A DNA stretch of 64,000 nt from Burkholderiales bacterium (GTDB lineage Bacteria > Pseudomonadota > Gammaproteobacteria > Burkholderiales > SG8-39), in the NCBI GenBank assembly GCA_014860445.1, contig JACZJT010000052.1:1-64000 (forward strand). Direction: 5' to 3'. This document shows, piece after piece, positions 7,754-34,638 of this stretch (positions are counted from its first letter, which is position 1; each line of letters starts with the position of its first letter). Both the position numbers and the translations under genes were made by a program. The notes beneath the pieces are model-generated. The model was not told the origin of the DNA. It saw only the letters and a list, made by a program, of their open reading frames with translations, and did no database searches.

Positions 7754-8089
7754 TCACGCCTTTCGGGTGCACATCAGCACGAGCTGCTTGCGGTCTTGGC
7801 CGAGGACGGATTCGACGTTGTAGACGGTCAGCGGCACCGGCGGAGATCCGGTCCAGCCGTGAACCACGCGCATGGCCGGTACGATGCCGGGCATATAGCG
7901 GGTCGTGATTTTGGTTTGGGCCGAGGCCTGCGTCGCACCGGCGGCGACGTACTCGCGCCCGGTGATGTCCACAACGCCGGCCCATAGCGTCGCGACGTCG
8001 GTCCAGCCCGCGACCATCTCGCCGTTCGCATCCTGTGTCGTCCCGGGCGCCTGGATGGTAACGCGCTCGTTCATGCTCCCAGCCCTCAT
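7754..8089 (-). CDS. Phage head closure protein (SPP1 gp16-like)
   Basis: A 111-residue head closure protein (phage head-tail joining family). It carries the typical MRAGSMNERVTIQAPGTTQD start, WTDVATLWAGVVDITGREYV centre and a C-terminus ending in VYNVESVLGQDRKQLVLMCT. The ATG overlaps the stop of the small upstream ORF (ATGA). Length, order and sequence agree with the family. Confidence 0.93.
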   Translation of the reverse strand: MRAGSMNERVTIQAPGTTQDANGEMVAGWTDVATLWAGVVDITGREYVAAGATQASAQTKITTRYMPGIVPAMRVVHGWTGSPPVPLTVYNVESVLGQDRKQLVLMCTRKA

Positions 8090-8361
8090 GCGCTCAGCTC
8101 CAATTGGTTGCGATCCACGGCTCGGGCGTGAAGGCGCTGGCCATTGAGTTCACCGGCCAATGGCTTCAACTTGAAAGACTGGATGGCACTGCCAGGGAAG
8201 CGGTTGACCACGCGCACGCGCCCGGTTTCGTGCGCGAAGCGGATCAGTTCGATTCTCTCAAGCGTCAGGCTCGGCGCGCCGCCAATGCAGACAACCGTTT
8301 CGCCTACCCTTGCGCGCCTGATGATGCCTGTAGCGGCTAGGCAACTTTTCCAGGAGGAGGT
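8086..8361 (-). CDS. Small ORF without a canonical start, in frame after the connector gene
   Basis: Between the connector stop and the head-closure start lies an open frame of about 91 codons ending in a TGA that overlaps the next ATG. It is in the same frame as the connector gene, directly after its TGA. The sequence looks protein-like (VGETVVCIGGAPSLTLERIE; VRVVNRFPGSAIQSFKLKPL), but no ATG, GTG or TTG occurs in its first half. Expression would need stop readthrough, an ATC/ATT start, or correction of a frameshift: an ATG overlapping the connector stop opens the frame one base away. I do not recognise the family. Confidence 0.4.
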   Translation of the reverse strand, partial: TSSWKSCLAATGIIRRARVGETVVCIGGAPSLTLERIELIRFAHETGRVRVVNRFPGSAIQSFKLKPLAGELNGQRLHARAVDRNQLELSA

Positions 8362-8958
8362 TCATGCAAGTTGCAGATCCGCCCGTTCCGGCTTGATGAC
8401 CTCCTCCGCAACTTTCAGAAGTAGCTCCATCATGAATTGGTCGCGGTCATAAAGCGCCTCAGCCCACAGCAGCATCGCCTTCTTGAAACGCACCGGCACG
8501 AGGTTCACGTCCTCCGGCGGGCTCCCTGAGCGATCAACGAACCCAGCGCGGAATTCGATTCTGAGAGTGCGGGGATTCCAGGTTTCCGATCCGGCATTGA
8601 AGAACCACGGCCACTTTGAGCCCGCTTCGCGCACGGCGTAGTCGGTCAACGTCAACTCGGTTTCGACTCCCGCTGCATCGACCGACGAAACCTTGGTCAA
8701 GGCGATAACGGGCGAGCGGCGCAGCAGAATCCGTTGGACCGCACCTTCGCCAATATCGCCAACAGTGAGGCACCAGGTCTGGTCGATTAGCGCGCGGCCG
8801 GTGTAGTTCTCGACCCACTCGCGCGCGGCGACGATGAGCCCGGTGATGTCGTCGTCCTGAACCTCTACGCCCTCTTGGCAGCGCAGGTGCCGTTTCATCT
8901 CAACGAGCGTCACCGGTTCGATGTCCGGCTCCGATACGCGTTCCAGAGAATAGTTCAT
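8362..8958 (-). CDS. Head-tail connector (phiE125 gp8 / gp6-like)
   Basis: A 198-residue head-tail connector of the phiE125 gp8 / HK97 gp6 type. It has the classic N-terminus [43 protein letters not shown] spread over residues 15-60 and the beta-rich centre with [17 protein letters not shown]. It forms the ring under the portal. The ATG overlaps the collagen-like gene stop (ATGA). Confidence 0.93.
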
Positions 8959-11102
8959 TTTAGGCGCACCGGTTCGCGATCGGCGCCAAGACGCTCGGCG
9001 ACTCCGAGCTGCGTCGATTTCGCGTCCTTACCGCGTGCGCCTTCCTTAACCATGAGACGCCAAGTAACGGAGGTGCCCGGCTTGTCCGTTGTCCTTTCCT
9101 GGCAATGCCAGGCCGAACCGCCCCAGGTCACAACGTCGCCACGCTCAAATTCCCCCTCACGCCAAACACCGCGATAAATCATGACGGGCAGCGTGAACTC
9201 GCAAACCGTCTTTGTGCCGCTGGTGAGCATCGCCGCGACAGATAGGTCGCGCGGATCCTCACCCTGCGATACGACGACGGCCGCGATCCCCTCCACGATG
9301 ACGGCCCATCCGGCTTTGGCGAGACCATCGGTTATCGGATCGGTATTACGAATCGATCGGATCATACCGCCGCGATATTGCGCAAAGGTTCCGCGCGGAT
9401 AGCTCTTCGATTCGTCGATTCCGGGCAGGATGTCAAGATCAAGTGCATCGCGACCGGGGGCACCATCTTTGCCATCGCGACCGTCGCGACCGTCCTTGCC
9501 TTCGCGTCCATGCGCCCCTGGGCCGCCCTCGGCGCCACGCAGCGATTCAAGCCACTGGAACTCCGTGCCCGCGTAGCCCTTTTCAACCGCGAGTTCATAG
9601 GCGCTTTTCCCGTTGGCGCCATCGCGCCCTGAATTGCCATCCGTGCCGTCGCGACCAGCGGCGCCTGCAACACCAGCATCCCCCTTTTCGCCCGCAGGCC
9701 CTAGTTCGCCGCGCATGCCAGGCTCACCGGATGGGCCTACCTCGCCGCGCTCTCCTTGTAGCCCCTGGTCGCCCTTGATTGACTCCCCGGGAGGCCCCGG
9801 CTCGCCGCGCTCGCCATCGTTACCTGCCGGACCTTGTTCGCCGCGCTCACCAGGCACGCCAGCATCACCCTTTTCACCTGGTGGACCCTGCTCTCCGATC
9901 GGACCGCGCTCACCCGTTGCGCCAAGTTCTCCCGGTGTGCCCGGTGTGCCCGATGTACCAGGTGTTCCGGGCTCACCGCGTTCACCAGGCACGCCGACAT
10001 CGCCCTTTTGACCTGCCGGACCAGGCTCGCCGCGCTCCCCCTTTTCACCTGCCGGGCCTTGTTCGCCGTGCTCACCAGGTGGGCCAGGTTCTCCAGATAC
10101 ACCCGCTGCACCGGGTGCTCCAGGTTCGCCGCGCTCACCAGGCACGCCGGCATCGCCCTTTTCACCTGATGGACCCTGCTCTCCGATCGGACCGCGCTCA
10201 CCCGTTGCGCCAGATTCTCCCGGTGTGCCCGGTGTGCCCGATGTACCAGGTGTTCCGGGCTCGCCGACATCGCCCTTTTCACCTGGTGGACCCTGCTCTC
10301 CGATCGGACCGCGCTCACCCGCTGCACCAGGTTCTCCCGGTGTGCCCGATGTACCAGGTGTTCCGGGCTCGCCGACATCACCCTTTTCACCTGGTGGACC
10401 CTGCTCTCCGATCGGGCCGCGCTCACCCACTGCACCAGGTTCTCCCGGTGTGCCGGATGTACCAGGTGTTCCGGACTCGCCGACATCGCCCTTTTGACCT
10501 GCTGGACCAGGCTCGCCGCGCTCACCAGGTAGGCCAGCATCACCCTTTTCACCTGGTGGACCCTGCTCTCCGATCGGACCGCGCTCACCCGCTGCGCCAG
10601 GTTCTCCCGGTGTGCCCGATGTACCAGGTGTTCCGGGCTCACCGCGTTCACCAGACACGCCGACATCGCCTTTTTCACCTGGTGGACCCTGCTCTCCGAT
10701 CGAACCGCGCTCACCCTTTTCACCTGCCGGGCCTTGTTCGCCACGCGCACCAGGTTCACCCGGTGCCCCAGGTTCTCCGCATTCGCCAGGCACGCCGGCA
10801 TCGCCATTTTTACCCGGCGGACCTCGCTCTCCGATCGGACCGCGCTCACCAGGCGTGCCACTCTCACCTCGAGCGCCTTGCTCGCCAGGCAGCCCTGGAT
10901 CGCCCTTGATCGACTCGCCCGTTGGTCCGCGTTCACCCGGAGCCCCCGGCGCTCCAGGCTCGCCCTTGGGCCCTGCCGGAATGGAAACGATCTTCCGGTC
11001 AAAGTCGTCGATGCGCGAAGAAAGCGGGGATAGTGCTCGCGCAACATAACCCTTGACCGCTTCGAGCATCTGTTTTCCGAGTGCCTCCGCGTCTTTGATC
11101 AT
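8955..11102 (-). CDS. Collagen-like phage structural protein with C-terminal binding domain
   Basis: A 715-residue protein. After about 50 residues with a short helix come roughly 500 residues of Gly-X-Y triplets ([17 protein letters not shown] units, repeated many times), predicted to form a collagen triple helix. The C-terminus is globular, with a Trp-rich carbohydrate-binding-like segment ([20 protein letters not shown] and [14 protein letters not shown]). I chose ATG 11102 ([12 protein letters not shown]), preceded by GAGGAAGCC. Collagen-like repeats usually occur in tail fibres or head decorations, so its place between capsid-side genes and connectors hints at a head fibre or decoration. 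The DNA repeat should be length-variable. Confidence 0.85.
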
Positions 11103-17161: not shown

Positions 17162-18934
17162 TCAAACGAACAGCAGTTGAAACTTCTTCTCAGGCTCCGC
17201 GAGTACGCCCATGACGCCGACCGCCATGAAGAGCGCGCACGCATCGTCGATCTTGTCAGCGCTGCGCTTTCTGTCCGGCGCCATGTTCATGTTCTCGTCG
17301 CGCCGCGGGACGACGTTCGACGCGCACCAATTGAGTACCGCATCGCCGCCGTGGCGCAGATTTCCGGCCAGGTAGAGGCGCTCGGTTTCCTGCATCGCCG
17401 GGTGGTAGGACTTCGTGCCCTGGCGAAACTCCTCAAGTATCGAGACCATTTTCCCGTCGGGCCGCTTTCGCTCGGGCAACTTCGGTTTCAGGCGATTGAT
17501 GAGATCGCGGATATTCCAAGGGTCGTACCCGATCACCTTGGGCTGGAAGCGAATGCAAAGCGCGAGAATGTCGCGCTCGACCATCGCGTAGTCGATCACG
17601 TTGCCGGGTAGCTGCGTGATCAGGCCGGCTGCGACCCATCCCGCATACGGGACGGTTCCGCGCTCGGTGCGCTGCGCAACAGCATCCACCGGCACCCACC
17701 GTCGGCCCCAGGTATAGACGATTCCATCGACGCGCCAGATCAAGCGCAGGGCCATGATGTCGGTCGTAGCCGCGCCGTCGATCCCGCCCCAACACTCCTC
17801 GCCTTCGAGAAAATTGAGGTCGACCGGCCCGTTGCAGCGTTTCCAGCGCTCGATGTTGAGCCAGGTGTTCGCCGCGGCCGCCTGCCGGTTGAGCCGTTTG
17901 ATCTTGAACTCGGCGTGCCGGCCCGGCATCTGCTTCGCGTCCATCGCGGCCTTCTTGATCTCCCGGTCCAGGATCGGATTGACGTCCATCAGCGGATTCG
18001 CCTTCTGCCACTTCGAAGCGTCGAAATCGCCGTCCGCCGCACGGTATCCTGGTTGCCCAGGCTCGCCAATCTGATCGTCGAGGGCGAAGATCAGCGGAAA
18101 GAAGTGGTCGGCTTCGAGGATGCCGCTCAGAACCTGATGCGCGTAGTGCCGCATTTCCGGCCACGGCCCCGGCGTCTCGTAGCCCTCGGTCGTGGTGTAG
18201 AGCCACAGGGCATTGAGGCGCGCGCCGGCGGCCGACTGCAGCACGTTCAAGAGGTCGTGCGTCTTGTGCGCGTGGATCTCATCGAGCGCCACATGCGACG
18301 GATTCAGCCCGTCCTGGGTTGAAGCGTGCGCGTTGATCGGCTTGAAGTTGCCGCCGACCTGCCAGTTCACGATCGCGCTCGCGAACACCTCCAGGTTGAA
18401 CGCCTCGCGCAAGTCCTGCGTTTGCTCGACCATGCGCCGCGCGATGTTGAAAATGATCCGCGCCTGGTCGCCGGTGGTCGCTGCGGTGATGACCTGCGGC
18501 CCAGGCTCCGGCTCATAGCACAGGCAATAGAGCAGGACTGCCGCAGCCAATGTGCTTTTGGCGTTCTTGCGTGCAACTGCGAACAACGCACTCGTAAAAC
18601 GCCGCGTACCATCGCACGACCGAAAACCGAACAGGTTGACCAGAAAAAAGACGTGCGCCGGGTGCAGCACAATCGTCGGCGTGTCCCACTTGCCCTCGAC
18701 GTGGGGAAGCTGCTCGATGAACTTGCAGACTTCGCGCGCGTGCGTGGGCGAGAACTTGAACGGGCCGTTCTTTTTCGCAGCGCGCTTGCGATCTTTCAGA
18801 TAGCGCGAAGCGGCGAGCCGGATCCACTTGCAATTTTTGTCGTTGTCGACATCGGCTATGGCGTCCCGCGCGTAGTCGTTCGCGACGACCAGAAAGTCAC
18901 GCTCTGCGAGGGGTTTCCTTTTTCTTGCCACCAT
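17162..18934 (-). CDS. Terminase large subunit
   Basis: A 590-residue large terminase, the packaging motor ATPase and nuclease. The Walker A-like loop ARKNAKST lies near residues 121-128 and the Walker B ALDEIHAH near 216-223. The RuvC-like nuclease begins around WGGIDGAATTDIMAL, with its last acidic site in KIDDACALFMA near the C-terminus. I take ATG 18934; the track uses a TTG one codon earlier. The 5' end overlaps the small terminase gene by 38 bp. Confidence 0.97.
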   Translation of the reverse strand: MVARKRKPLAERDFLVVANDYARDAIADVDNDKNCKWIRLAASRYLKDRKRAAKKNGPFKFSPTHAREVCKFIEQLPHVEGKWDTPTIVLHPAHVFFLVNLFGFRSCDGTRRFTSALFAVARKNAKSTLAAAVLLYCLCYEPEPGPQVITAATTGDQARIIFNIARRMVEQTQDLREAFNLEVFASAIVNWQVGGNFKPINAHASTQDGLNPSHVALDEIHAHKTHDLLNVLQSAAGARLNALWLYTTTEGYETPGPWPEMRHYAHQVLSGILEADHFFPLIFALDDQIGEPGQPGYRAADGDFDASKWQKANPLMDVNPILDREIKKAAMDAKQMPGRHAEFKIKRLNRQAAAANTWLNIERWKRCNGPVDLNFLEGEECWGGIDGAATTDIMALRLIWRVDGIVYTWGRRWVPVDAVAQRTERGTVPYAGWVAAGLITQLPGNVIDYAMVERDILALCIRFQPKVIGYDPWNIRDLINRLKPKLPERKRPDGKMVSILEEFRQGTKSYHPAMQETERLYLAGNLRHGGDAVLNWCASNVVPRRDENMNMAPDRKRSADKIDDACALFMAVGVMGVLAEPEKKFQLLFV

Positions 18935-19397
18935 CAATCAAGTCCAAAAAGCGATTCGATCTTTTCTTCGCGCCCACGGGAGCAACGCGCGCGCGCGAGG
19001 AAGGCGTCATGCCGAACTCGCTTTCAGCCTTGTGCATTTGCTCCTGCGCCTTATTCGACACCGCGAGGTACGGGTTCTGAATCGGGAACCCGGAGCCCGG
19101 CGCGATCAGCACTTCGCCCTGTTTGGCGACCATGCTCTCGGCGTTGAGATAGCGTCCGAACGCTTGGCAGTATTTGGCGAACGCGAGCAGATCGACCTCG
19201 GTGATCATTGCGTTTCGCACCAGCTTGGGAAATTCCGCCGCCCACACCGCGCGCCCCTCGCCGCTCATCCACTCGGGCGGCTGCGTCGATTCGGTCACAG
19301 GATCGGGCTGCGGCTCTGCCTCGGGTAGCGTGCGGTGTCCGGGCTTACCCGCGAGCAATTTGAGATGCGTCGGTTTGGGTTTTCGACCTGCACGCAT
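18897..19397 (-). CDS. Terminase small subunit (P27 family)
   Basis: A 166-residue P27-type small terminase that recognises the packaging site. Family features are MRAGRKPKPTHLKLLAGKPG at the start and LLAFAKYCQAFGRYLNAE with PYLAVSNKAQEQMHKAESEF in the core. It is the first gene of the late operon; about 440 bp without a clear gene precede it. An HNH gene, usual at this point in HK97-like genomes, is missing here but occurs at 37.1 kb. Confidence 0.95.
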   Translation of the reverse strand: MRAGRKPKPTHLKLLAGKPGHRTLPEAEPQPDPVTESTQPPEWMSGEGRAVWAAEFPKLVRNAMITEVDLLAFAKYCQAFGRYLNAESMVAKQGEVLIAPGSGFPIQNPYLAVSNKAQEQMHKAESEFGMTPSSRARVAPVGAKKRSNRFLDLIDGGKKKETPRRA

Positions 19398-19838: not shown

Positions 19839-20687
19839 ATGAACTGGATCATTGTTCTCGGCGTCATCGTCCTTTTTCTCTATGTGCTGACTCGCAAAAC
19901 TGATGACCGCAAGCCTTCCGGCAAATCGATGGCTGGCGGCAAGTCAACAGGCCGTGGAACCAACTTCCTGCCACCGATCCCGAAGGGCTTTCAGATATTC
20001 AACGCACGGCTGTCCGTGGCCGGTATCCAACATAGGCGCGATGACGCCCGGCGCTTCGCGGACGATTCAGACCAGACGCTCGCACTTGAACGCGAACCCG
20101 AAAACACACACGATGCGAACGCCATCAAGGTGATGGGCGTAACGCGAGGCACGCGCCGCTTCATCGGGTATGTTCCGAAGGAAGTTGCCGAACAGATTGT
20201 CGGTAGTGCCCTTGCGGATGTCGTTCAGCCGCGTCTGGAACGCATCTGGCGCACCGATAACGGTTTCGTTGATGTCATCTTCCAGATCGTCGGCCCGAAG
20301 GACAAGAAGGCGCAATACATCGATTTCCGGAGCAACAAGCCCGCCGATGCTTGGCAAAAGGAATGTTTGAAGTTCTTCGGGCTGCCCGTGTCAAAAGGAC
20401 TCACAACGGGACAGGCCGCCAAGATAATTGCGGAACACCGCACAAAACTCGAAACCGAAGACAAAGCGCGACTCGACGAGTGGGACGCCTACGAGGAAAT
20501 CTGCAACGAATTCAATGATGCTGATTTCCGCGCTTCCTTCGAGTTGAAGAAGGTCAGCGACAAGGTATTGAAAGAAGCACTGGATGCGTTGAAGCGGGAA
20601 GGCGCGACGATGCGTTCGCTCGCTGCCGACATCGACACGGTCGTTGATAAGGTCATTGCCTTGAAACCCGACTTGGAGAGAAAATAG
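19839..20687 (+). CDS. Membrane-anchored HIRAN-domain protein
   Basis: A 282-residue protein. Residues 3-20 form a transmembrane anchor (WIIVLGVIVLFLYVLTRK), followed by a Gly/Ser linker. A HIRAN domain spans about residues 50-125 (FNARLSVAGIQHRRDDARRF; EREPENTHDANAIKVMG; RRFIGYVPKEVAEQI). HIRAN domains bind DNA 3' ends and occur in repair enzymes and in stand-alone prophage proteins. The C-terminal half is charged and helical with no family recognised. It is a single gene facing right, opposite to the late operon beside it, as expected of a lysogenic-conversion (moron) gene. Confidence 0.85.
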   Translation: MNWIIVLGVIVLFLYVLTRKTDDRKPSGKSMAGGKSTGRGTNFLPPIPKGFQIFNARLSVAGIQHRRDDARRFADDSDQTLALEREPENTHDANAIKVMGVTRGTRRFIGYVPKEVAEQIVGSALADVVQPRLERIWRTDNGFVDVIFQIVGPKDKKAQYIDFRSNKPADAWQKECLKFFGLPVSKGLTTGQAAKIIAEHRTKLETEDKARLDEWDAYEEICNEFNDADFRASFELKKVSDKVLKEALDALKREGATMRSLAADIDTVVDKVIALKPDLERK

Positions 20688-20821: not shown

Positions 20822-21544
20822 TTAGTGCGTGTTCGCCGGCGCCGCTTCTGGCACGATCTTCTCCGCGTCGAGCACGCTCACCGCGAGCTCCGCGAGCAGC
20901 CGAAGTGCGACCGCGTTGTTGATGACTTTCTTTTCCTGCTTGACGCGCACGATCGCGTCGAAAAGCGCGTTGAACGTCGCAAGCTCGCCGACCAGGACCT
21001 GCGCCTTTTTGCTCGCCTCGATGCGTGCGACGAGATCGATGAACACGGCTTTTTCCTCGGGCAAAAAAGCGATCGTCAGCTCCTCGTACCTCGGCCGCGT
21101 GATGCCAAGCGCCGCGAGCTTCTCGTCGGTGCATCTGAAGGCGTCATCGGTGACGCCGCTGTAGCGTTTCCATTCCAGCGAGTTCAAGCTGGTGTAGAGC
21201 TGCGCAAGGATGTTCGGATCGTCCTTGCCGTTGATCGCGTTCTGCGACAACTGGATCGCCAGGCGCCGCTCCTCGGTGAGTTCGGTGAGAACGTCCAACA
21301 CGTCGGCCTCTTCAATCCCTGCCTTGATCGCGGCGCGCACGCGGTGATTGCCGCTCAGCACTTCGCCGCGATAGACCACCGGGACGCCCATCAGCTTCCC
21401 GTCGTGTTTGATGTTGGCGACGAGCTGGCTAAACTCCTGCGGTGTCATGTAGCGCGCGTTCTTCTCCAGCAATTTCAGGTCGTGCAGCTTGACCTTGACG
21501 ATCCGGCTTTCCACCTTGTCCAGCGTATTTTCGGAGCCATTCAT
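20822..21544 (-). CDS. ParB-like nuclease-domain protein
   Basis: A 240-residue protein from ATG 21544 (MNGSENTLDKVESRIVKVKL). The ParB/sulfiredoxin-like domain covers residues 15-100, with VPVVYRGEVLSGNHRVRAAI containing the G-x-HR nucleotide site, followed by a helical C-terminus. No DNA-binding HTH typical of partition ParB is apparent. It shares 116 bp with the upstream DNA-modification-like gene, so the two are tightly coupled. Such ParB-like proteins often accompany phage DNA-modification enzymes. Confidence 0.8.
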   Translation of the reverse strand: MNGSENTLDKVESRIVKVKLHDLKLLEKNARYMTPQEFSQLVANIKHDGKLMGVPVVYRGEVLSGNHRVRAAIKAGIEEADVLDVLTELTEERRLAIQLSQNAINGKDDPNILAQLYTSLNSLEWKRYSGVTDDAFRCTDEKLAALGITRPRYEELTIAFLPEEKAVFIDLVARIEASKKAQVLVGELATFNALFDAIVRVKQEKKVINNAVALRLLAELAVSVLDAEKIVPEAAPANTH

Positions 21545-22805
21545 TGAACACGTCCTGGATAGATTGATTGCGAATTGCCGACTGGTACTGCAGGTGATCG
21601 GCGGCGCGTTTGTCCAATTCAAAGATCCCGCGGTACTTCATGGACACGGGCTTGGTCGTGAACGCCGTGGTCACGATGTATTCGACCTTGATCAGCAGGC
21701 GGCGGTTGATCGGTTCGATCACCTCGCGGCAGCTCGCAATCATCGGGATCAGCTTCGAGATCCTGCGTTCGCGCGAGACTGAGAAATCCGAGAGCATGTA
21801 AAGCTCGCGCGTCTTATCGCCAAACCGGGTTTGCGCGAAGATGAATCCGCCGGCGAGCACACCATCGATCAGCACGATGCAATTGAACTGGCCCGTGGTG
21901 TGTTCGATGCCTTTGGCGAGATAGACGTTTTTCAGGTAGTTCATGCGCTTGCCGTCGACCTCGGCAACCGTCACCTTGCTCTTGGCCGCAATCGCGGCCG
22001 GATCGATCACTGCGTATTTGAATTGAACTTCGTTCGGTAGCCGACGCCGGTACGATGCGGCCTGGTTGCTCGAATAGGTGTAGACGGGCTTGTTCGCGCC
22101 GCGCCATTCCGTTGTCGGTGTGCGATCGGCGAGCAGCTGATCCGAAATCACGCAGTACGGAATATGCCGCTCTTCAAGCGACAGGATAAACGCCGGCAGC
22201 GAGTCCGGGTCCCAGATGCCGTATCTCGGCGCCGGCCAATCGGTGTTCTCGTTGACGAGCCGGTAGATCCGCTCGTATCCGTTTTTGTAGGTCGGAGCAA
22301 AGCACGCCATGCCGCCGCCGCGTTTCTCGGCCCGATCCGCCTGCTCGATGAAGTCGCCGGCGTAGTAGTCCTCGATCTTGATCTGCGCCACCAGCGCGGC
22401 GAGCTTCGGCAGCGCCTGATCCACGAACACCCGGAACTGCTCGCGATAGTGCCGAAAATGCACCTGGGCGTATTCGTTCTTGCTCGTGAATTTGCCCATT
22501 GCCGATGCGACCATCACGGCGGCAACGCGCCCGCGGAAGTCCATCCCGGCAATCGCAGCTTCGACGAACTCGAGTTCGCCCTTGAAGCGGATCTCGAACT
22601 CGCGCCCCATCGCCAGGGCGCCGATGCTGCAGGTCAGGAGCGACACGTCGTTCGAATAGACGCGGCAACCGGGGTGCCGCATCTTCACCGCGCGGTCGAA
22701 GCGGAAGCTGCCCGAGCAGCCGACGTACACGTCGCCCCACTCATCAAACGGCACGGTCGAAAGCACCTGACCGACGACCTCTTTTGGGACGGCGCCGATG
22801 AACAT
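21429..22805 (-). CDS. Putative phage DNA-modification protein (methyltransferase-like plus GNAT-like regions)
   Basis: A 458-residue protein I do not confidently assign. The N-terminus (DEWGDVYVGCSGSFRFDRAV; CRVYSNDVSLLTCSIG) resembles a degenerate SAM-binding beta-alpha unit followed by an acidic second strand. The middle region contains GMACFAPTYKNGYERIYRLV. The C-terminal part (NCIVLIDGVLAGGFIFAQTR; ELYMLSDFSVSRERRISKLI) reads like a GNAT acyltransferase fold, as in Mu Mom. It overlaps a ParB-like gene and faces the early operon across a shared promoter region. Anti-restriction modification of phage DNA is a reasonable inference, not shown. Confidence 0.5.
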   Translation of the reverse strand: MFIGAVPKEVVGQVLSTVPFDEWGDVYVGCSGSFRFDRAVKMRHPGCRVYSNDVSLLTCSIGALAMGREFEIRFKGELEFVEAAIAGMDFRGRVAAVMVASAMGKFTSKNEYAQVHFRHYREQFRVFVDQALPKLAALVAQIKIEDYYAGDFIEQADRAEKRGGGMACFAPTYKNGYERIYRLVNENTDWPAPRYGIWDPDSLPAFILSLEERHIPYCVISDQLLADRTPTTEWRGANKPVYTYSSNQAASYRRRLPNEVQFKYAVIDPAAIAAKSKVTVAEVDGKRMNYLKNVYLAKGIEHTTGQFNCIVLIDGVLAGGFIFAQTRFGDKTRELYMLSDFSVSRERRISKLIPMIASCREVIEPINRRLLIKVEYIVTTAFTTKPVSMKYRGIFELDKRAADHLQYQSAIRNQSIQDVFNEWLRKYAGQGGKPDRQGQAARPEIAGEERALHDTAGV

Positions 22806-23153: not shown

Positions 23154-23477
23154 ATGGCTGTCCAAAGTGTAGCTCAATCCGAAGCGCTCCAACGGGCGCG
23201 CACCAGCAGCAGCACCGCCAACTTCAGCGCGATCTTCGAGGGGTTCGAGTCCAAAGGAATCCCGGCCGCAGAAATCGAGCCGCGCGTCAACGTTCTCACC
23301 TATAACGCCTGGCTGGCCCTCGGCCGGCAAGTGCGCCGCGGTGAGCACGGCGTCAAGGTCTGCACCTTTGTCTCGATGACCAAGAAGAACGAGTCCGGCG
23401 TAGCCGAATCGATTGGTCGGCACCCGCGCGGAGTCACCGTTTTCCATGTTTCGCAAACCGACCCGGTGCAAGCATGA
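23154..23477 (+). CDS. ArdC-like ssDNA-binding domain protein
   Basis: A 107-residue protein matching the N-terminal single-strand-DNA-binding domain of ArdC/TraC-type antirestriction proteins: [20 protein letters not shown] with following KVCTFVSM. No metallopeptidase domain follows, so it is a stand-alone N-domain. First gene of the rightward early operon, with ribosome site ACAGGAGTTCC. Its end overlaps the RadC ATG (ATGA). Such proteins coat and protect incoming plasmid or phage DNA. Confidence 0.75.
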
Positions 23478-23953
23478 GCACCAAAGTGCTGAATCAGGAA
23501 ACCGGCGCCTACCTGACCGACGAAGAGGTCATCAGCATGGCCGTCGCCATCATCAATCACCGCTTCGGCCTGAAGCGCGCGTCGCTCAATTCGCCCAGCA
23601 TGGTCCGCGACTACCTGAAACTGACGCTGACCAGCAAAGAGCACGAAGTGTTTGTCTGCGTGTTCATCGATGCGCAGAACCGCGTCATAGCGGTCGAGGA
23701 GCTGTTCCGCGGGACGCTGACGCAGACCAGCGTCTACCCTCGGGAAGTCGTCAAGGCGGCGCTGCAGCACAACTGCGCGGCCGTGATCCTTGCGCACAAC
23801 CATCCTTCCGGCGTGGCCGAACCGAGCCACGCAGACCAGTGCCTCACCACCAGCCTCAAGCAGGCCCTGGCCGTCGTGGACGTCAAGGTGCTCGACCACT
23901 TCATCATCGCCGGAGACTCGGCCACGTCATTTGCAGAAAGGGGCTTGCTATGA
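23474..23953 (+). CDS. RadC-family JAB-domain protein
   Basis: A 159-residue RadC-like JAB/MPN metalloprotein lacking the N-terminal HhH region, as is usual for plasmid, phage and island copies. The metal motif is HNHPSG at residues 108-113 with Asp near 121 (SHADQC). The upstream conserved block [20 protein letters not shown] is intact. Biochemical function of the family is unsettled. It is coupled by ATGA overlaps on both sides. Confidence 0.93.
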
Positions 23954-25773: not shown

Positions 25774-26835
25774 ATGCAAAATGAAAGCGTCACCCTTTAC
25801 TACCGCGACCACGCCAGCGACAAGGTGTATCAAGCGCAAATTGCGCCCGAAGCTGATGGCTTCGCCGTGCGTTTTCAATACGGACGCAGGGGCAGCACCT
25901 TGACCGCCGGCACCAAAACCCCGGCGCCGTTGCCGTTCGAGAAGGCGAAAAAGATTTACGACGCCCTGGTCAAATCCAAGACCGCCAAGGGCTATACACC
26001 GTCCGAGGGCGGCGTTCCGTATCAGGCGTCCGTAGATGAAGCGCGCGTCACAGGGCTCGACGTTCAGGTGCTCACCCCTGTCGCTGAATCCGAAGTCACG
26101 AGCTACATTTCGAATGACGCATACGTCGCCCAGGAGAAATACGACGGCGAGCGCCGGCCGGTTGCTAATCGTCAGACCGCGATCGGCAGCAACAAGCGCG
26201 GGCTGGAAATCGCACTCCCGATTGCGCTGGCAGAAAGCGTCGCTCTTCTCTTACCCGGCACCGAGCTTGACTGCGAACAGGTCGGCGACAAGCTCTACGC
26301 CTTCGATCTGTTGCGCGATGGCGAGAACAACGTGCGCCAGTTGCCCTACATCACGCGATACGGTCTGCTCCTAGAAGCCCTGCGGCGCGTCGGCGTAAGC
26401 AACATCGAGACCGCGCCGACTGCGTTCGGCACATCGGCGAAACGCGCCCTGTTCGAGCGCCTAAAGGCTGGAAAGGAAGGCATCGTGTTCAAAAGGGGTG
26501 ATGCGCCTTACAAGCCCGGCAACGGCAAGAATCTCGATCAGGTCAAGTTCAAGTTTGTCGAATCGGCCACAGTCGAGGTCGCTACCGTTCACGCCTCCAA
26601 GCGCAGCGTGACAGTCCAGGTCTACGACGATGCCGGCAACGTGGTTACGCTCGGCTCGGTGAGCGTCGGGGTCGATAAAGACATTCCGGCGCTCGGCGAT
26701 ATCGTCGAAATCCAGTACCTATATTGCATGGCTAGCCTGATTCAGTCGGTCTACCTCGGTAAGCGCACTGATCAGAATCGCGCAAGTTGCACAGTAGCTC
26801 AACTCAAATATAAATCGGCCACGATCGCCGCGTAG
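25774..26835 (+). CDS. ATP-dependent DNA ligase with N-terminal WGR domain
   Basis: A 353-residue protein. Residues 1-75 form a WGR domain (VRFQYGRRGST in place of WGR). The nucleotidyltransferase domain carries motif I KYDGER (Lys122 as AMP acceptor), FDLL (motif III), KEGIVFK (motif IV) and QVKFKF (motif V). An OB-like domain follows (VEVATVHASKRSVTVQV). All key ligase residues appear present. WGR-ligase fusions occur on phages and plasmids and presumably seal nicks. It follows the antisense tRNA-like element. Confidence 0.88.
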   Translation: MQNESVTLYYRDHASDKVYQAQIAPEADGFAVRFQYGRRGSTLTAGTKTPAPLPFEKAKKIYDALVKSKTAKGYTPSEGGVPYQASVDEARVTGLDVQVLTPVAESEVTSYISNDAYVAQEKYDGERRPVANRQTAIGSNKRGLEIALPIALAESVALLLPGTELDCEQVGDKLYAFDLLRDGENNVRQLPYITRYGLLLEALRRVGVSNIETAPTAFGTSAKRALFERLKAGKEGIVFKRGDAPYKPGNGKNLDQVKFKFVESATVEVATVHASKRSVTVQVYDDAGNVVTLGSVSVGVDKDIPALGDIVEIQYLYCMASLIQSVYLGKRTDQNRASCTVAQLKYKSATIAA

Positions 26836-26950: not shown

Positions 26951-26992
26951 CACTTCAAATATGGTTTTCCAAACCTCAACAGGAGCTTGAAA

Positions 26993-27364
26993 TTGAAAAC
27001 AGCGTCTTTCTTTTCCTACTTCGGCCCCGGCCGGATCTCGATCGCGCGGTTCGCGCCGCGCAACACGCCGGCCGGTTTCAAGGTCTACAAGCCGCTGGCG
27101 CCCGGCCCCTGGTTCAACAGCGTGCCAGAAGACGTCTACCGCGAGCTCTACTTCGCCCAACTGGCGGATCTCGACGCGGCAGCGGTGGTGGGCGATCTTC
27201 TCCACCTGGCCGCCGGCGCCGAGCCGATCCTTTTGTGCTACGAGAGCGTGAAGGACATCGCGACCGGCGCCACCTACTGTCACCGCCACATGGTCGCGGA
27301 GTGGCTCAAGCGCGAACTTGGCATCGATGTGCCGGAGATCGAAGCCGGACACAACATCGCCTGA
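26993..27364 (+). CDS. DUF488-family protein
   Basis: A 123-residue DUF488 protein: SYFGPGRISIARFAPRNTPA at the N-terminus and the family signature ILLCYESVKD ... CHRHMVAEWL at the C-terminus, with paired Cys/His residues. The start is a TTG at 26993. The ribosome module ACAGGAGCTTG-AAATTG is identical in layout to the neighbours' AAATGG, showing that TTG replaces ATG. The track's TTG at 26987 lies too close to the AGGAG. Function of the family is not established. Confidence 0.85.
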   Translation: MKTASFFSYFGPGRISIARFAPRNTPAGFKVYKPLAPGPWFNSVPEDVYRELYFAQLADLDAAAVVGDLLHLAAGAEPILLCYESVKDIATGATYCHRHMVAEWLKRELGIDVPEIEAGHNIA

Positions 27365-27432: not shown

Positions 27433-27672
27433 ATGGCTGCAGCAAGTGTAACTCACCGCACGAGCGACGTATTCGCTCAAATCATCCGGCGCAAAATGCG
27501 CAGGCAAGGCGTGACAATTCGCCAACTCGCGACCGCCATGAACCTAACCATGAAGCGAGTGCGCGAGGTCCGCGATCACGGCACGGCTCCGGCCTGGGCG
27601 AATGCTTCCGAGTATTGCTGGAAGCAGGACTGGCTTGACGGCATCAACGCGGCCAGCGCGGTGCAATCATGA
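27433..27672 (+). CDS. Small HTH-like protein
   Basis: A 79-residue basic protein from ATG 27433 with ribosome site ACAGGAGCACG. A helix-turn-helix is likely in TIRQLATAMNLTMKRVREVR. The first codons (MAAASVTH) and the leader resemble those of the ArdC-like gene (MAVQSVAQ), indicating duplication of the 5' end. It overlaps the ParB gene by ATGA and may be its autoregulator. Confidence 0.6.
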   Translation: MAAASVTHRTSDVFAQIIRRKMRRQGVTIRQLATAMNLTMKRVREVRDHGTAPAWANASEYCWKQDWLDGINAASAVQS

Positions 27673-28517
27673 AACTCCACACCGCCTCGGTCATCCCCAA
27701 CCCGGACCAGCCGCGCAAGCGCTTCAATCCCGAGGCGCTGGCCGAGCTGGCCGCGTCGATCAACGCCAACGGTTTGATCCAGCCGATCACTGTTCGCGCC
27801 TTGCCCGAGGACCGGTACATGATCGTTGCAGGCGAGCGCCGCTGGCGTGCTCACGTCCTGGCCGGGCTCGACACGATCGAAGCCAACTTGATCGAGATCA
27901 CCGATAGCGAGCGAGACATCCTCGCCATCGTCGAGAACCTGCAGCGGGCCGACATCACGCCACTTGAGGAAGGCCGGGCGTTCCAGCGCGTCCTCGACAC
28001 CGGTGTCACCGCCCAGGAGCTTGCGGATCGGATCGGACTTAAACAGCCCTGGCGCATCACCGAGCGCACCGCGCTGCTGCGGCTGAATCCGTCCTACCTA
28101 AACCTGCTCGAAAAAGGCCACCTGTCACCGTCCCAGGGAACGGAGCTGGCCCGGCTCGACCAGCATGACCAGGACACGCTGTTCGGCCTGATCCGTGACG
28201 GGCGCTGCGAGACTTACGCGAAGCTGCGCGCCGCGGCAGACGCTCTGATCGCCGCAGCCAGCCAGGGCGGCTTTTTTGAGAAACCGAAGGTAAGCGCCGC
28301 GGAAGCCAAAGCCCTGTCGGCATTCGAAGCCAAGATCGAGCAGATCGTCCGCATGGTCGCCAGTGGGTTCAAGGACAACGAAGTCGTCGCCTTGCAGAAG
28401 ATCAACCCGCACCGCGCGGGCATCGTCGCCGAACAGATCGGGCTCATCAGCAAGCACCTGAAGCAAATCGAGCGCGAGATTCAGAAAGTCGTCGCGCAAG
28501 GCGAAATCATCACCTAA
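27669..28517 (+). CDS. parB: ParB/Spo0J-family partition protein
   Basis: A 282-residue ParB with the canonical layout: PNPDQPRKRFNPEALAELAA, the CTP-binding GERRWRAHVLAG motif, ENLQRADITPLEEGRAF and an HTH (ELADRIGLKQPWRITERTAL). The C-terminal half is helical. No parA is next to it, which is unusual for a segregation cassette, so it could serve gene regulation or replication of the element. Confidence 0.93.
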   Translation: MKLHTASVIPNPDQPRKRFNPEALAELAASINANGLIQPITVRALPEDRYMIVAGERRWRAHVLAGLDTIEANLIEITDSERDILAIVENLQRADITPLEEGRAFQRVLDTGVTAQELADRIGLKQPWRITERTALLRLNPSYLNLLEKGHLSPSQGTELARLDQHDQDTLFGLIRDGRCETYAKLRAAADALIAAASQGGFFEKPKVSAAEAKALSAFEAKIEQIVRMVASGFKDNEVVALQKINPHRAGIVAEQIGLISKHLKQIEREIQKVVAQGEIIT

Positions 28518-29601: not shown

Positions 29602-30732
29602 TCAGGCGTTAGCCGCCTCTAAGCTAATTTCCAAGTGCTGGTGACGCTCCGTTTCGGAGATCACCTTCAGGCGCTCGGCGAGGTTCCCAAGGGCCAAGAC
29701 CCATGTTTTACCGATTCCTGTGCTGTATTCAGTGGTGAAACTCTCATGGGACGGATATTCAATGTGGATATCTGGGTGTAACGCTTTGACCATGGAACAG
29801 CCAACCGCTTGAAGCTTGCTACCAGCTGGGGCCAACAGGATTCTGTGGCTGGCCGAAAGTGCCCAGTAGAGATCGAGCAACATCAAAACCGTTTCCCGGT
29901 AGTCCAGAGTCGATACAGATCGCTTCGGTAATGCAACTTCGCCAGGTCGCGCCTGTTCCACCGGGTTGTCAATCTCCCATTCCCGGCGCACTTGGTCGTG
30001 AATCCAGGCCGTTGCCTGTTCACGCCAGCTATGCACTGGTGGCCGTCCGTTGATCAAGAACAACCGCCCCGGATAAGCTGTGTTCAACAGCACCTGAGTA
30101 AGCGCGTCGTTGAAGGACATGAATACCAAGGCTGCTGTCTGGTGCCCCTGCATGGCGACGCTTGCGAGCGAATCGACGCGAACCACACCATGCACGCCAG
30201 TAAACACCTGCAGCGACGGCTGATGCACTTTGTTTGTCTCCCGAGCCCGATTGAAACTTGCTTCGGTAGGACCGTAGCTCTCGGCCTCCGCATAGAAAAT
30301 CGTCACCTCAAGCTTGAGAGTCCGAGCCACGTTTAGCACCAAAATGATCAACAGCTTAGACATCGTTGAAATATCCACTAATACTCGGCGCGCACGATGG
30401 TATGTTAGCCGTGCGCTCAGGCGCTGCTCGAAATCGCCCGGCTCAAATCGGTTGTAATTGAGAATATCCCCATCCGTGATTTGCACTCCGACCTTGTTAA
30501 TGCTCTGGCGCACATCGGCCAGTCGGTTTCTTGAGTTAGCCGGTTCATAACTCATGAGGATAGCCTTCGCTGACGTACCAGTCATGATGGCCTGCGTTAC
30601 GGCCATGGTGCGGTCTTCAAATCCCGGAGCATGCACAACAACATCACCCGCGTCGATGGCCAGCTTCGATTCTTGCCGGAGCGCGGGTAGCAGCGTTAGT
30701 AGCGCCTGATTTTCCGACTCGGTCACGGTCAC
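29602..30732 (-). CDS. Third gene of putative defence island, unknown
   Basis: A 376-residue protein I do not recognise, starting at a GTG that overlaps the kinase-ATPase stop (GTGA). The N-terminal half looks Rossmann-like (VVVHAPGFEDRTMAVTQAI; KAILMSYEPANSRNRLADVR; RVLVDISTMSKLLIILVLNV; EVTIFYAEAESYGP). The GFEDR and DISTMSK patterns recur in proteins I associate with conflict-type gene islands. The second half is helical with another strand-rich part (HRILLAPAGSKLQAVG). There is no obvious nuclease motif or membrane segment. As the last gene of the operon it may be the effector or a sensor; both are guesses. Confidence 0.65.
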   Translation of the reverse strand: MTVTESENQALLTLLPALRQESKLAIDAGDVVVHAPGFEDRTMAVTQAIMTGTSAKAILMSYEPANSRNRLADVRQSINKVGVQITDGDILNYNRFEPGDFEQRLSARLTYHRARRVLVDISTMSKLLIILVLNVARTLKLEVTIFYAEAESYGPTEASFNRARETNKVHQPSLQVFTGVHGVVRVDSLASVAMQGHQTAALVFMSFNDALTQVLLNTAYPGRLFLINGRPPVHSWREQATAWIHDQVRREWEIDNPVEQARPGEVALPKRSVSTLDYRETVLMLLDLYWALSASHRILLAPAGSKLQAVGCSMVKALHPDIHIEYPSHESFTTEYSTGIGKTWVLALGNLAERLKVISETERHQHLEISLEAANA

Positions 30733-33452
30733 TCCTCTGGGCGTTCGCCCAAATCGTCGTATAGGGGATCGCCCCGACCTGATTCTGCGCTTTCCCCAAA
30801 CATGGTCATCTGCCCGGTATCACCTCCACTACGATTCCTAGAGGCGATGAAAGTCTCTCTGAAGATGTCCGGTTCAAGCAGCAATTGGATGAATGATGAA
30901 CAGCTCAGCGATACGCTATCCCGCTTAGAGAGCGCCAGGGTGCCATAGGGAAGTAGCAACCGGCGTAAATAGAGTCGGGGCACAAATGCGCCGCGCACGC
31001 TCTTCCCTCTATTGTCACGCATAAACAGCCCATACCGGATGAGATCTCGGTAGATCTGCTCGGCCAGCCCTGAAATGCGAAACTCGTCCACGATTTCGAT
31101 CCGGAAGGCCATCCGAGGCACCTCTCTCACATGCCCGTTTTCGCGGATCGTATACGTCGGGCCATGTAGAAGTTCGCTCGCTGCGGCGACAAACGCTTCG
31201 ACAATCGCCTTGAGGTGATCACCGAAACGTCCGGAGAGTTTATAGTTCGGCCTCGTCATTTGAATGGCCGCTAACTCGTTCTGCAATTGAATCGGGTTCG
31301 TCGGCTCATTGCGAGTATGGGAATTCAGCCACTCACTGCCGCGATTCCGAAAGGCGCGATCCTGAAGAGCTTCTTCGATCGGGAACGAAAGTAACGACGC
31401 GGGATTACCCGCGTCTGCGGCCTGGTCCACGACATCGGAAATTAATTGGATCATGGTTCGTGTATCGCCGGACCAGAGATTCGAAAAAACATCATCACCA
31501 AAATAATTCACGCGCGAACGCGAACGGCCACGCCTCTGCGATGTGCCTACAATTGTGGTCTGTTCATCTGCACCCTGCTCAGACGGCATCAATCTGAGAC
31601 GCCGCGCGAACTCAGTTTTTGACAACGCCGAATGCCCCAGGAGTTGGCGCAGAGACGCGCAATCTCGCGGTATTCTTTGATCCACAGACAGTCGCCGTGA
31701 AAATACTTCGTTCAGGAACACGAGGCGCTCGTCATCGGGCAGGAAAAGGGATTCCTCGCCGAGATCTACCAACTGGAAGTCGTCACCATCCTGGAGGCTC
31801 TTGCCGCTTGAATCCAGTGGGACGAAAGTCGTCCAGGCTTCGGTGGCCACTTTGGTCAAGATCTCGGGAGAGCGTTGCAGCAGCGAGCGGTTGAGCACAC
31901 GCTGTATCGATTCCGAGACCCGAGGCGTCGAGTAGTCATCGACGAACAACAGGATCGCACGGTCGCCGATCCAGGAGCAGCAGTTCCGGGCCTGTTGCGC
32001 AAAATGAGGAAGCCATCGATGCTGGGACATCTCATGGTAGCCTTGGAAGCAGACCGCGTCGGAGCCGGTCGGGAACAACCACTTCGTTTGTTCCAAGATT
32101 GACCGGTATTTCTCAAGCCGGTCTTCGCCTAGGATCAAGGAATTATTTGTATCCGATATAAGTAGGCGCTTGACGAGTTCCAGCAACGGAGCACTTGGTT
32201 GGGTGTCATTGCGCGCTGAACGCGCTGACTCTACGGCCAAAAGGTCGGCCAGGACGCAGAGATTGGCGAAGCAAATCAATCGCGCTTCGTCGGCAGACGA
32301 TGGATTACTCGGGAAATGCGCAAACGCATCCGCGATGTCGTTGGCGTTGACGTAGAACGCGACAAATTTTGGCGGATCTGGCAGTCCTAACACTGGCCCA
32401 CACTCAACCATCAGCCGCTCGCTGAGCCGTCGGAATAGCATAGTCTTTCCACACCCTCGCGGCCCAGTTACTACGGTCGGTATATCCAGCGCCAGAATCT
32501 TAGAACGCGCCGGAACCGTCGGAACAAATAGCTTTTTCCACCAATCCCAACGTTCTCCGATCATTTCGCTTACTTGAAATTGGCCGACCCCCGGACCATC
32601 GGCCGCGTCAGCCTGGAATGAACTGCGGCTCAGAATTGCCTGCTGTATCGGCGGCGTTGCCGATTTCCCACATTGCGCTTTTTCCTTGATTTCTTTGACA
32701 AGGTGCAAGATGTCGAGCGGCCGGCAGCGTTCCGTGCCCTGGGATTCCCGCAGTAGCTTTGCGAACAACGGCTTAATCGCCTGCAATATTTGCTTGTGCG
32801 TTGCCGTCGCCATCGCGTAACCAACCCGCGCGATCATCATATTAATAATTTCGGCGAGCCCTATGTAGTCGTCCTTTGGAGACTTTTCACCGCCCGTGGC
32901 TCCGTAGCCGAAGTCAGAAACAAAGATGGGTTGTCTCCGCTGCATCGAATCATCATAGGTTTCAAGTTCTTCCGACCCGATCAGGATATTGCCAGCGTGG
33001 AGATCGCCATGTCGCGATACGCCTTTCGCCTCGCACCCATGCAAGACATGCAATATACGCTCGGTCACTGCCAGCAAAAAGCTTGTATTGATGCTCTTGA
33101 CCCGCTCTAGATAGGTAATCAGATTTTCGCCGGGGGGGATGTAGTCCCAGACCGTGTACAGACACAATTGCGTGTCACCGAGGTGCGTGATGCGTGACTC
33201 CCCGTGAGTGTGGTAATGCACTACACCCTGGACGAGATTGAGCTTCGATACCTTTTTGAGCTCGGTATCCCATCCCGACTTCAGTGCGCGGAAGACTAGC
33301 TTGACCGCAAATTCTGTATCGGGCAGATCTTTGTGGTAAGCCTTGTAGACGAAACCGATCTTGCCCTTGCCGACAAATCCACCCAGTCGGAAGTTCTCAA
33401 CTTCCTTGCCCTCCAAGTCTTCGGACCAAGACTTGTTATTTTCTTGGGGCAC
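30729..33452 (-). CDS. Ser/Thr protein kinase fused to ORC/CDC6-like P-loop ATPase
   Basis: A 907-residue protein. Residues 20-260 form a eukaryote-like kinase: Gly loop GFVGKGKIGFVYKA, Lys51 in FAVKLV, catalytic HGDLHAGN (Asp150) and DFG at 180-182. All catalytic elements are present. A P-loop NTPase follows, with Walker A GPRGCGKT at 330-337 and Walker B LLFVDD near 500-506, resembling ORC/CDC6 or STAND-type ATPases. The C-terminal 300 residues look like winged-helix and adaptor regions (AEQIYRDLIRYGLFM). It overlaps the methyltransferase gene by 17 bp. Kinase-ATPase fusions suggest a phosphorylation-controlled, DNA-linked sensor. Confidence 0.85.
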   Translation of the reverse strand: MPQENNKSWSEDLEGKEVENFRLGGFVGKGKIGFVYKAYHKDLPDTEFAVKLVFRALKSGWDTELKKVSKLNLVQGVVHYHTHGESRITHLGDTQLCLYTVWDYIPPGENLITYLERVKSINTSFLLAVTERILHVLHGCEAKGVSRHGDLHAGNILIGSEELETYDDSMQRRQPIFVSDFGYGATGGEKSPKDDYIGLAEIINMMIARVGYAMATATHKQILQAIKPLFAKLLRESQGTERCRPLDILHLVKEIKEKAQCGKSATPPIQQAILSRSSFQADAADGPGVGQFQVSEMIGERWDWWKKLFVPTVPARSKILALDIPTVVTGPRGCGKTMLFRRLSERLMVECGPVLGLPDPPKFVAFYVNANDIADAFAHFPSNPSSADEARLICFANLCVLADLLAVESARSARNDTQPSAPLLELVKRLLISDTNNSLILGEDRLEKYRSILEQTKWLFPTGSDAVCFQGYHEMSQHRWLPHFAQQARNCCSWIGDRAILLFVDDYSTPRVSESIQRVLNRSLLQRSPEILTKVATEAWTTFVPLDSSGKSLQDGDDFQLVDLGEESLFLPDDERLVFLNEVFSRRLSVDQRIPRDCASLRQLLGHSALSKTEFARRLRLMPSEQGADEQTTIVGTSQRRGRSRSRVNYFGDDVFSNLWSGDTRTMIQLISDVVDQAADAGNPASLLSFPIEEALQDRAFRNRGSEWLNSHTRNEPTNPIQLQNELAAIQMTRPNYKLSGRFGDHLKAIVEAFVAAASELLHGPTYTIRENGHVREVPRMAFRIEIVDEFRISGLAEQIYRDLIRYGLFMRDNRGKSVRGAFVPRLYLRRLLLPYGTLALSKRDSVSLSCSSFIQLLLEPDIFRETFIASRNRSGGDTGQMTMFGESAESGRGDPLYDDLGERPEE

Positions 33453-34638
33453 TTGACGATCCGTGTGCTTTAGGTTTCGTCGACGCTTTCTTGTAGATCA
33501 GCACCGTCTCCGACTTTGTGCCAGTGCACTCGCGGCGGGATCGCCGGATATTGGGAATAATGTCGCTATAGATTTGTTCGAGTCCGAACACCTGGAGGGT
33601 GGGTTCCGATTCGAAGACCTTGCGCGTGATGAAATCCGTCCGCCCAGGGCGACCGCTGCCGCGCGTAGCATCGCCGACCACAAGGATGATATAGCCGCCT
33701 GGCTTGATTCCCGATGCCAAACGCGAACATACCGACATTAATAACGCTCTATATTCCGACTCTCGATCTCGGCGCTTAAGTTCTAGGCCCTGTGGTAGCG
33801 ACCGGTCGATAAACCAGAGTCGTAGGCGATTGTCGCGAACGTAATCGAGTTCGTTCATGTACGGCGGGCTGGTTATTACAGCGCTGATCTGGCGCAGCCT
33901 AGGGAATTCACGAGCATCAACGTGTAGTACGCGACGCGACTCTGTGTAGCGGGTTACAGGGCGCTTGAACGTTCGACGTATCTTCGCCTGCATCCGCGAC
34001 AGCACGTCCCGTTCCTTATACATTTCAGGATACTGCTCGCGCGGGAACCGGCGATCTCGCAAGTACGGAACAAGGTGGCTGCTCGGGTAAGATAGGAATC
34101 CCGGACGCTGATGGTGAAGCACGCCTAGGAAACAGGCGAGAAGAAAGATGTCGCCACGTGCTACGCAGGCGTCCCGAAACGCAAGGGCGGTTCGCAGTGT
34201 TTCAGGATGAAAGAATTGTCGTACCCAAGTCGGAATTTTACGTAAGTCTTGGTCGCTATGGAGCCGCTGCGACATAACCCATGTCGCCTGTAATCGGCGG
34301 TTCGCTGCATCCAGGCTGGATGGTGGAAACAGTTTTGCCTTGGTGAGCAAGACGGCGTAAGGGTTCCAGTCTCCGGCCACTACCCGACGGCCATTGGCTG
34401 CTGCTTCGAGCACTGCAACCCCGCAACCACAGAACGGATCAACTACCAAGTCGCCAGCGTTCGTGTACTCCAGCATTAGAGATTTGGCCATCGACGTCTT
34501 CATCCGGCCAATATAGGGGGCGATTTGGTGCAGCGACAGGTCGGTGGCTTTCGTGGACGCAGCCGACCAGTTCGGCGACAAACGTAACGAATCCTTGGCT
34601 ACAGTATTGAAAATGTCAATCGTTGTAGCATCGAACAT
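33436..34638 (-). CDS. DNA methyltransferase (N4-C/N6-A type), defence-island member
   Basis: A 400-residue SAM-dependent DNA methyltransferase. Motif I DPFCGCGVAVLEA lies at residues 67-79, an acidic second-strand motif at AGDWNPYA, and the catalytic TSPPY at 256-260, followed by NELDYVRDNRLRLWF. A conserved N-terminal HQIAPYIGRMK precedes motif I, as in beta-class enzymes. The middle insertion (residues 110-230) is probably target-recognising. No cognate restriction gene adjoins it; the kinase-ATPase follows, overlapping by 17 bp. First gene of the operon. Confidence 0.9.
   Translation of the reverse strand: MFDATTIDIFNTVAKDSLRLSPNWSAASTKATDLSLHQIAPYIGRMKTSMAKSLMLEYTNAGDLVVDPFCGCGVAVLEAAANGRRVVAGDWNPYAVLLTKAKLFPPSSLDAANRRLQATWVMSQRLHSDQDLRKIPTWVRQFFHPETLRTALAFRDACVARGDIFLLACFLGVLHHQRPGFLSYPSSHLVPYLRDRRFPREQYPEMYKERDVLSRMQAKIRRTFKRPVTRYTESRRVLHVDAREFPRLRQISAVITSPPYMNELDYVRDNRLRLWFIDRSLPQGLELKRRDRESEYRALLMSVCSRLASGIKPGGYIILVVGDATRGSGRPGRTDFITRKVFESEPTLQVFGLEQIYSDIIPNIRRSRRECTGTKSETVLIYKKASTKPKAHGSSSAPRK

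Follow-up and report, generated by a model that had tools for sequence, protein, structure and literature searches.

An overlapping gene pair within a prophage

The stretch of DNA analyzed here (64,000 nucleotides from a Burkholderiales bacterium, hereafter the window) carries two overlapping minus-strand genes within a prophage whose tail, portal, capsid, and terminase genes lie at about 1-19.4 kb. The features on which the analysis rests are the following.

17162-18937, minus strand: terminase large subunit, a packaging gene downstream of the pair
18897-19397, minus strand: terminase small subunit, a packaging gene downstream of the pair
20822..21544, minus strand: ParB-like protein, 240 aa from ATG 21544, with an N-terminal ParB/Srx fold (box GNHR) and a helical C-terminal part (PHROG, Foldseek)
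21429..21544, minus strand: 116-bp double-coding overlap of the enzyme and ParB-like genes (codon-position variation)
21553..21556, minus strand: AGGA, resembling a ribosome-binding site, 8 nt before the ParB-like ATG (sequence)
21429..22805, minus strand: two-domain enzyme, 458 aa, ATG start, phrog_7858 (ORF, Pfam, PHROG, AlphaFold2, Foldseek)
21525..21983, minus strand: GNAT-phage-like domain (PF22559), residues 275-427 (Pfam, E 5e-44; Foldseek to GNATs and Mu Mom)
22044..22802, minus strand: DAM-like-phage1 domain (PF22555), residues 2-254 (Pfam, E 5e-44)
22290..22301, minus strand: motif IV, residues 169-172, FAPT (DPPY in Dam); P171 invariant in 106/106 (alignment)
22704..22724, minus strand: SAM-binding motif I, residues 28-34, VGCSGSF; C30, G32, and F34 near-invariant (alignment)
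26987..27364, plus strand: DUF488-N3a-type protein, 125 aa, motif LLCYES...CHRHMVAEWL (PF22751, 28.0 bits versus a cutoff of 27)

An earlier note on this DNA had described a 458-residue protein whose gene overlaps a ParB-like gene by 116 bp, and these coordinates are exactly confirmed when the latter gene begins at ATG 21544. A start at TTG 21622, where the frame is also open (266 aa), is less likely given the AGGA sequence and its 8-nt spacing from the ATG. Compared across the window and six relatives, the enzyme frame shows 25-40% variation at its third codon position upstream of the overlap and only 3-18% within it, where the most variable position is the third one of the ParB frame. Both frames are thus genuinely coding across the overlap, the ParB one being under stronger constraint; a chance overlap was rejected because it is contradicted by this pattern.

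For the ParB-like protein, PHROG matches include phrog_7405 (E 6e-63) and families of ParB type, phrog_620 among them (E 2e-16), but its score for Pfam ParB_N is under the cutoff. Its structure model (pLDDT 78.9) matches the N-terminal domain of Myxococcus ParB, Noc, KorB, and sulfiredoxin in Foldseek; the N-terminal fold and the P-motif-box arginine are common to all these proteins of the ParB-CTPase fold, and G65, H67, and R68 are invariant in the GNHR box (box II). Unlike the partition ParB of ParABS systems, the protein is an orphan: HTH_ParB was not detected by Pfam, and a ParA partner was not seen among the scanned neighbors. The NTP specificity of this fold is not reliably predictable from sequence (PMC12704722). 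The prophage also encodes a second, canonical ParB (ParB_N plus HTH_ParB), whose gene comes shortly after that for the DUF488 protein (27669-28517, plus strand).

Two folds in one enzyme

Both domains of the enzyme score above their curated Pfam cutoffs (150.9 bits for PF22555 and 150.5 bits for PF22559, versus 27), and they co-occur in all full-length members scanned with Pfam. The enzyme belongs to phrog_7858, a PHROG family without assigned function. It shares its domain order with the uncharacterized PF22555, PF22559, and phrog_7858 families and matches them over its full length, but motif IV reads FAPT in its clade.

The AlphaFold2 model, based on an alignment with 46 relatives, has a mean pLDDT of 84.8, mostly above 85 across residues 10-240 of the DAM-like half, and predicts disorder for the tail encoded by the overlap region (residues 435-458). 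Among PDB structures, Foldseek matched the methyltransferase half best to AviRa, an rRNA methyltransferase (E 1.5e-4), followed by E. coli Dam (E 1.7e-3), and the GNAT half best to Naa60, an N-terminal protein acetyltransferase (E 1.1e-4), along with PseH and phage Mu Mom (8bv8, E 4.5e-4). The TM-scores are low, partly because every match spans a single domain, and thus support a fold class rather than close kinship. Alignment of the enzyme domains with Dam or Mom profiles by hhalign indicated no relation (probability about 1%; 0.9% for Mom), and a sequence search of solved structures returned zero matches for the enzyme or the DUF488 protein. Any relation to Dam and Mom appears weak, and structural only at the level of these models. 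The CoA loop of the GNAT domain (RxxGxG/A) is degenerate, reading RRISKL in the window enzyme, and the usual GNAT tyrosine is a methionine in the Faecalibacterium-phage clade.

The earlier note had tentatively assigned a SAM-type N-terminal half and a GNAT-like, Mom-like C-terminal half, and had proposed AlphaFold and Foldseek analysis of both proteins. That analysis recovered SAM-type and GNAT folds in the enzyme and a ParB fold in its partner, in agreement with the two Pfam assignments and the conserved SAM motifs; the likeness to Mom was borne out, weakly, at the level of structure.

Linkage with ParB-like and DUF488 genes

Relatives of the enzyme occur in phages of Actinomycetota, Bacillota, and Pseudomonadota. 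They are carried by cultivated phages of Gordonia (e.g. Clawz), Mycobacterium (Jeon), Faecalibacterium (FP_Brigit), and Microbacterium, by plasmid-borne phages or prophages of Salmonella, Peribacillus, and Streptomyces, and by many uncultivated viral contigs; the nearest genome relative is in a Betaproteobacteria MAG (86% identical).

We quantified gene linkage in about 127 non-identical relatives, from which exact-sequence duplicates had been removed but which are redundant by clade, so that the counts are not independent. A ParB-like gene is adjacent to the enzyme gene in 126 of the 127 loci with enough room, the sole exception being L037, and the two frames overlap in 121. Pairwise distances of the two proteins are strongly correlated (r 0.96), also among pairs more than 50% different (r 0.82). 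Two atypical loci were observed: in L088 (8001-8525) an apparent in-frame deletion has joined the N-terminal ~100 residues of the enzyme with the C-terminal portion of its ParB-like neighbor, and in the Proteobacteria MAG locus L091 (860-2958) the enzyme gene is shortened to a 111-residue frame, with homology up to residue 171. In L091 a ParB-like gene was not found downstream, and a 482-aa ORF starts ~200 bases past the end of the homology.

Of the 98 loci whose flanks extend at least 3 kb upstream and 1 kb downstream, 91 have a DUF488-type gene near the pair, 80 of them close upstream. This gene is retained in the clades with DPP, NPP, and aromatic versions of motif IV, and in two loci (L168 and L233) despite a different gene order or strand; a Peribacillus record (L173) independently annotates DUF488. 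The window protein passes the curated PF22751 cutoff, but its gene lies 4 kb from the pair on the other strand. A search of 50,697 phage records with the DUF488 protein gave 11 matches; five of these records carry the enzyme/ParB pair, which itself occurs in about 16. Distances of the DUF488 and enzyme proteins are uncorrelated among distant pairs (r 0.12). The view of the locus as a pair in the earlier note therefore stands as far as the ParB-like gene is concerned but was incomplete, having missed the DUF488 gene as a third constant partner. A DUF488-like gene is also present in the records of the Prevotella megaphages Lak-A1, Lak-A2, and Lak-C1.

Terminase genes are often found next to the cassette, on its downstream side, but not always: Jeon has no terminase gene within 8 kb on either side of the pair. 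This context bears on two alternatives. The enzyme may have a protein or RNA target, AviRa being an rRNA enzyme; for example, it could modify a host or virion protein, with the ParB-like and DUF488 proteins serving packaging or DNA-end roles near the terminase. The best structural matches (AviRa and Naa60) and the frequent terminase adjacency fit this explanation, as does the precedent of GNATs with which phages modify the RNA polymerase of their host (PMC7824862). Nevertheless, the near-absolute pairing with a protein of DNA-binding-type fold, the likeness to Mom, and the context in Jeon all argue against it, and we regard it as unlikely. According to the second alternative, the three proteins process terminase-cut DNA ends rather than modify bases genome-wide. 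Besides the terminase genes that often follow the cassette, it has on its side the 2023 paper on the rhodanese-phosphatase superfamily by Burroughs and Aravind, which reportedly predicted DNA-end processing for DUF488-clade enzymes. Since the cassette is not always beside a terminase, end processing appears very improbable.

Conserved SAM motifs and a switch in motif IV

SAM motifs I (CxGxF) and II ((N/S)DV) are kept throughout the family, as in amino-methyltransferases, and C30, G32, F34, and D53 are each conserved in at least 102 of 106 members. Known DNA amino-methyltransferases also carry (D/N/S)PP(Y/F/W) in motif IV, a pattern from which the FAPT of the window enzyme departs. Of the 106 aligned members, 67 have F at residue 169, 31 have N, 4 have Y, and 2 have D, and F or Y occupies the D/N/S position in 46 of 73 representatives, including the window. 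On a tree of these 73 sequences, constructed with the motif IV columns left out and with the root not known, the aromatic residue requires two changes in all, one of them being the main switch. The 46 aromatic sequences together with one SPPT sequence form a single supported clade (98 SH-aLRT), and the outer clades keep DPP or NPP types (DPPV, DPPY, and NPPT). The enzyme has the class I SAM fold and the motif I and II positions in common with Dam/D12-class adenine-N6 methyltransferases (E. coli Dam, 4rtp; T4 Dam), but the window clade has an aromatic residue in place of the motif IV D/N, and the D12 family of Pfam gave no match.

In one relative (L066), the enzyme is interrupted by an intein (TIGR01445, above cutoff) exactly after the FPPTY of motif IV. 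Inteins tend to insert at active sites, so that this position supports a working site. The intein, at 7872-10061 of that locus, includes a LAGLIDADG-like stretch, GWLAGMFDGEGSL. In part of the NPPT clade, and only there, a phage-borne SAM synthetase gene lies ~1.6-3.5 kb upstream of the enzyme gene (L011, L073, L077, L078, L083, L084, and others).

We infer that the aromatic motif IV reflects altered chemistry rather than decay, although it could instead mean that methyl transfer was lost. Two further explanations can be weighed here. The enzyme could be a conventional methyltransferase of DNA amino groups (adenine N6 or cytosine N4) that has an accessory GNAT domain, tolerates the odd motif IV, and yields simply a methylated base. 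The outer-clade motifs, the conservation of motifs I and II, and the presence of Dam among the Foldseek matches speak for this. This is rather unlikely, given the F/Y replacement in the majority of representatives, the constant association of the two domains, and, in the carrier L168, a separate true D12 Dam only 2 kb away (5406-6290). It is still less probable that the methyltransferase half is a dead scaffold sensing DNA or SAM, with the GNAT half alone modifying DNA in the manner of Mom. An aromatic residue at the catalytic position and the Mom-like GNAT half would be consistent with such a scaffold, but the conservation of C30, G32, F34, and D53, the association with a SAM synthetase gene in one clade, and the intein in motif IV are not.

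A candidate DNA hypermodification cassette

With moderate confidence, we propose that the three proteins constitute a phage nucleic-acid hypermodification cassette, whose most likely substrate is the DNA of the phage itself, late in infection. The domains, the model-level folds, the gene linkage, and the motif change are established. The nearly constant co-travel of the enzyme, ParB-like, and DUF488 genes across very different phages suggests a widespread, putative system that would chemically decorate phage DNA. The earlier note had likewise inferred that the pair alters phage DNA to evade restriction; such alteration is the most probable reading, though its support is indirect. Weighing against the cassette are the aromatic motif IV, the degenerate CoA loop and replaced tyrosine of the GNAT domain, the missing profile-level link to Dam and Mom, and, for the DUF488 protein, the lack of distance correlation and the remote position of its gene in the window.

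We put forward the following model for the DNA substrate, the transferred group, the acyl donor, the role of the DUF488 protein, and protection from restriction. The ParB-like protein would bind DNA, probably with NTP, and bring the enzyme there, as its fold, its GNHR box, and the overlapping genes suggest. The Dam-like domain, judging from its conserved motifs I and II, would bind SAM and move a SAM-derived group onto a base; because the motif IV D/N is aromatic in the window clade, the product there is probably not plain N6-methyladenine. The fused GNAT would acylate either the SAM-derived group or an amine of the base, in the way suggested for Mom, and candidate roles for the DUF488 protein are processing of the donor, of an intermediate, or of DNA ends. 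The modified DNA would then be packaged and would resist host nucleases.

Phage Mu Mom (8bv8) resembles the C-terminal half of the enzyme in its GNAT-type fold and in the proposed role in phage DNA modification, but it is much shorter, with a single such domain, and lacks sequence-level similarity to the window enzyme. Its product is N6-carbamoylmethyl-adenine, and it has been proposed to act on adenine N6. Mom is not known to have ParB or DUF488 partners.

A possible lead to the adduct came from the closest viral structure model, annotated as 'amidoligase enzyme', which aligned over 444 columns and both domains in a structural match (E 1.8e-25). This agrees with phrog_2443, likewise 'amidoligase enzyme' (e.g. 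A0A8S5SJK3 of Siphoviridae sp. ct4Uy2), a longer protein whose C-terminal part corresponds to the window GNAT. In other phages the enzyme thus appears to be joined to an amidoligase, hinting at a bulky adduct, and the structural link would point to a carboxylate-bearing one in some phages. No amidoligase was found near the window, and a search of viral contigs, phages, and phylum genomes for an amidoligase-fused member did not retrieve one; among enzyme ORFs with long N-termini, some appeared to be falsely extended and others contained an intein. We offer only tentatively a more specific version of the cassette, in which the Dam-like lineage that switched to an aromatic motif IV adds a new SAM-derived adduct (e.g. 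of aminocarboxypropyl type) to a DNA base, the GNAT acylates it, the amidoligase amidates it in the fusions, the ParB-like protein is the loader, and the DUF488 protein is an essential accessory, amounting to an undescribed DNA modification widespread among phages of three bacterial phyla.

The 2023 rhodanese-phosphatase superfamily paper reportedly places DUF488-clade enzymes in viral nucleic-acid-modifying systems, and it probably predicted such systems. Its citation appears in PMC12419801. Among the papers accessible to our search, none joined DUF488, phage, and DNA modification. The domains, including DUF488-N3a, are already curated in Pfam and the novelty is modest: we add the aromatic motif IV, its intein, and the quantified three-gene linkage, which may have been published earlier. 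If the cassette modifies DNA, it represents a conserved, portable path to a base modification that is probably unknown so far, and the cultivated Gordonia, Mycobacterium, Microbacterium, and Faecalibacterium phages make virion DNA directly analyzable. Moreover, the motif IV change inside one family provides a clean test of an amino-methyltransferase turned into something else.

Other genes in and beside the prophage

Between the terminase genes and the ParB-like gene lies a gene for a HIRAN-domain protein, oriented opposite to both (19839-20687, plus strand). The prophage also carries a RadC-like JAB-domain gene (23474-23953, plus strand), and a JAB-domain gene is likewise found beside DUF488 in the Peribacillus locus; its early region encodes a 353-aa protein with WGR and ATP-dependent DNA ligase domains (25774-26835, plus strand). 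Beside the prophage, a three-gene block on the minus strand (29602-34638) looks like a defense system, comprising a CARF6-like protein (29602-30732), a protein with Ser/Thr kinase and ORC/CDC6-like AAA domains (30729-33452; PADLOC CARF_STK_AAA, E 3e-22), and a DNA methyltransferase (33436-34638).
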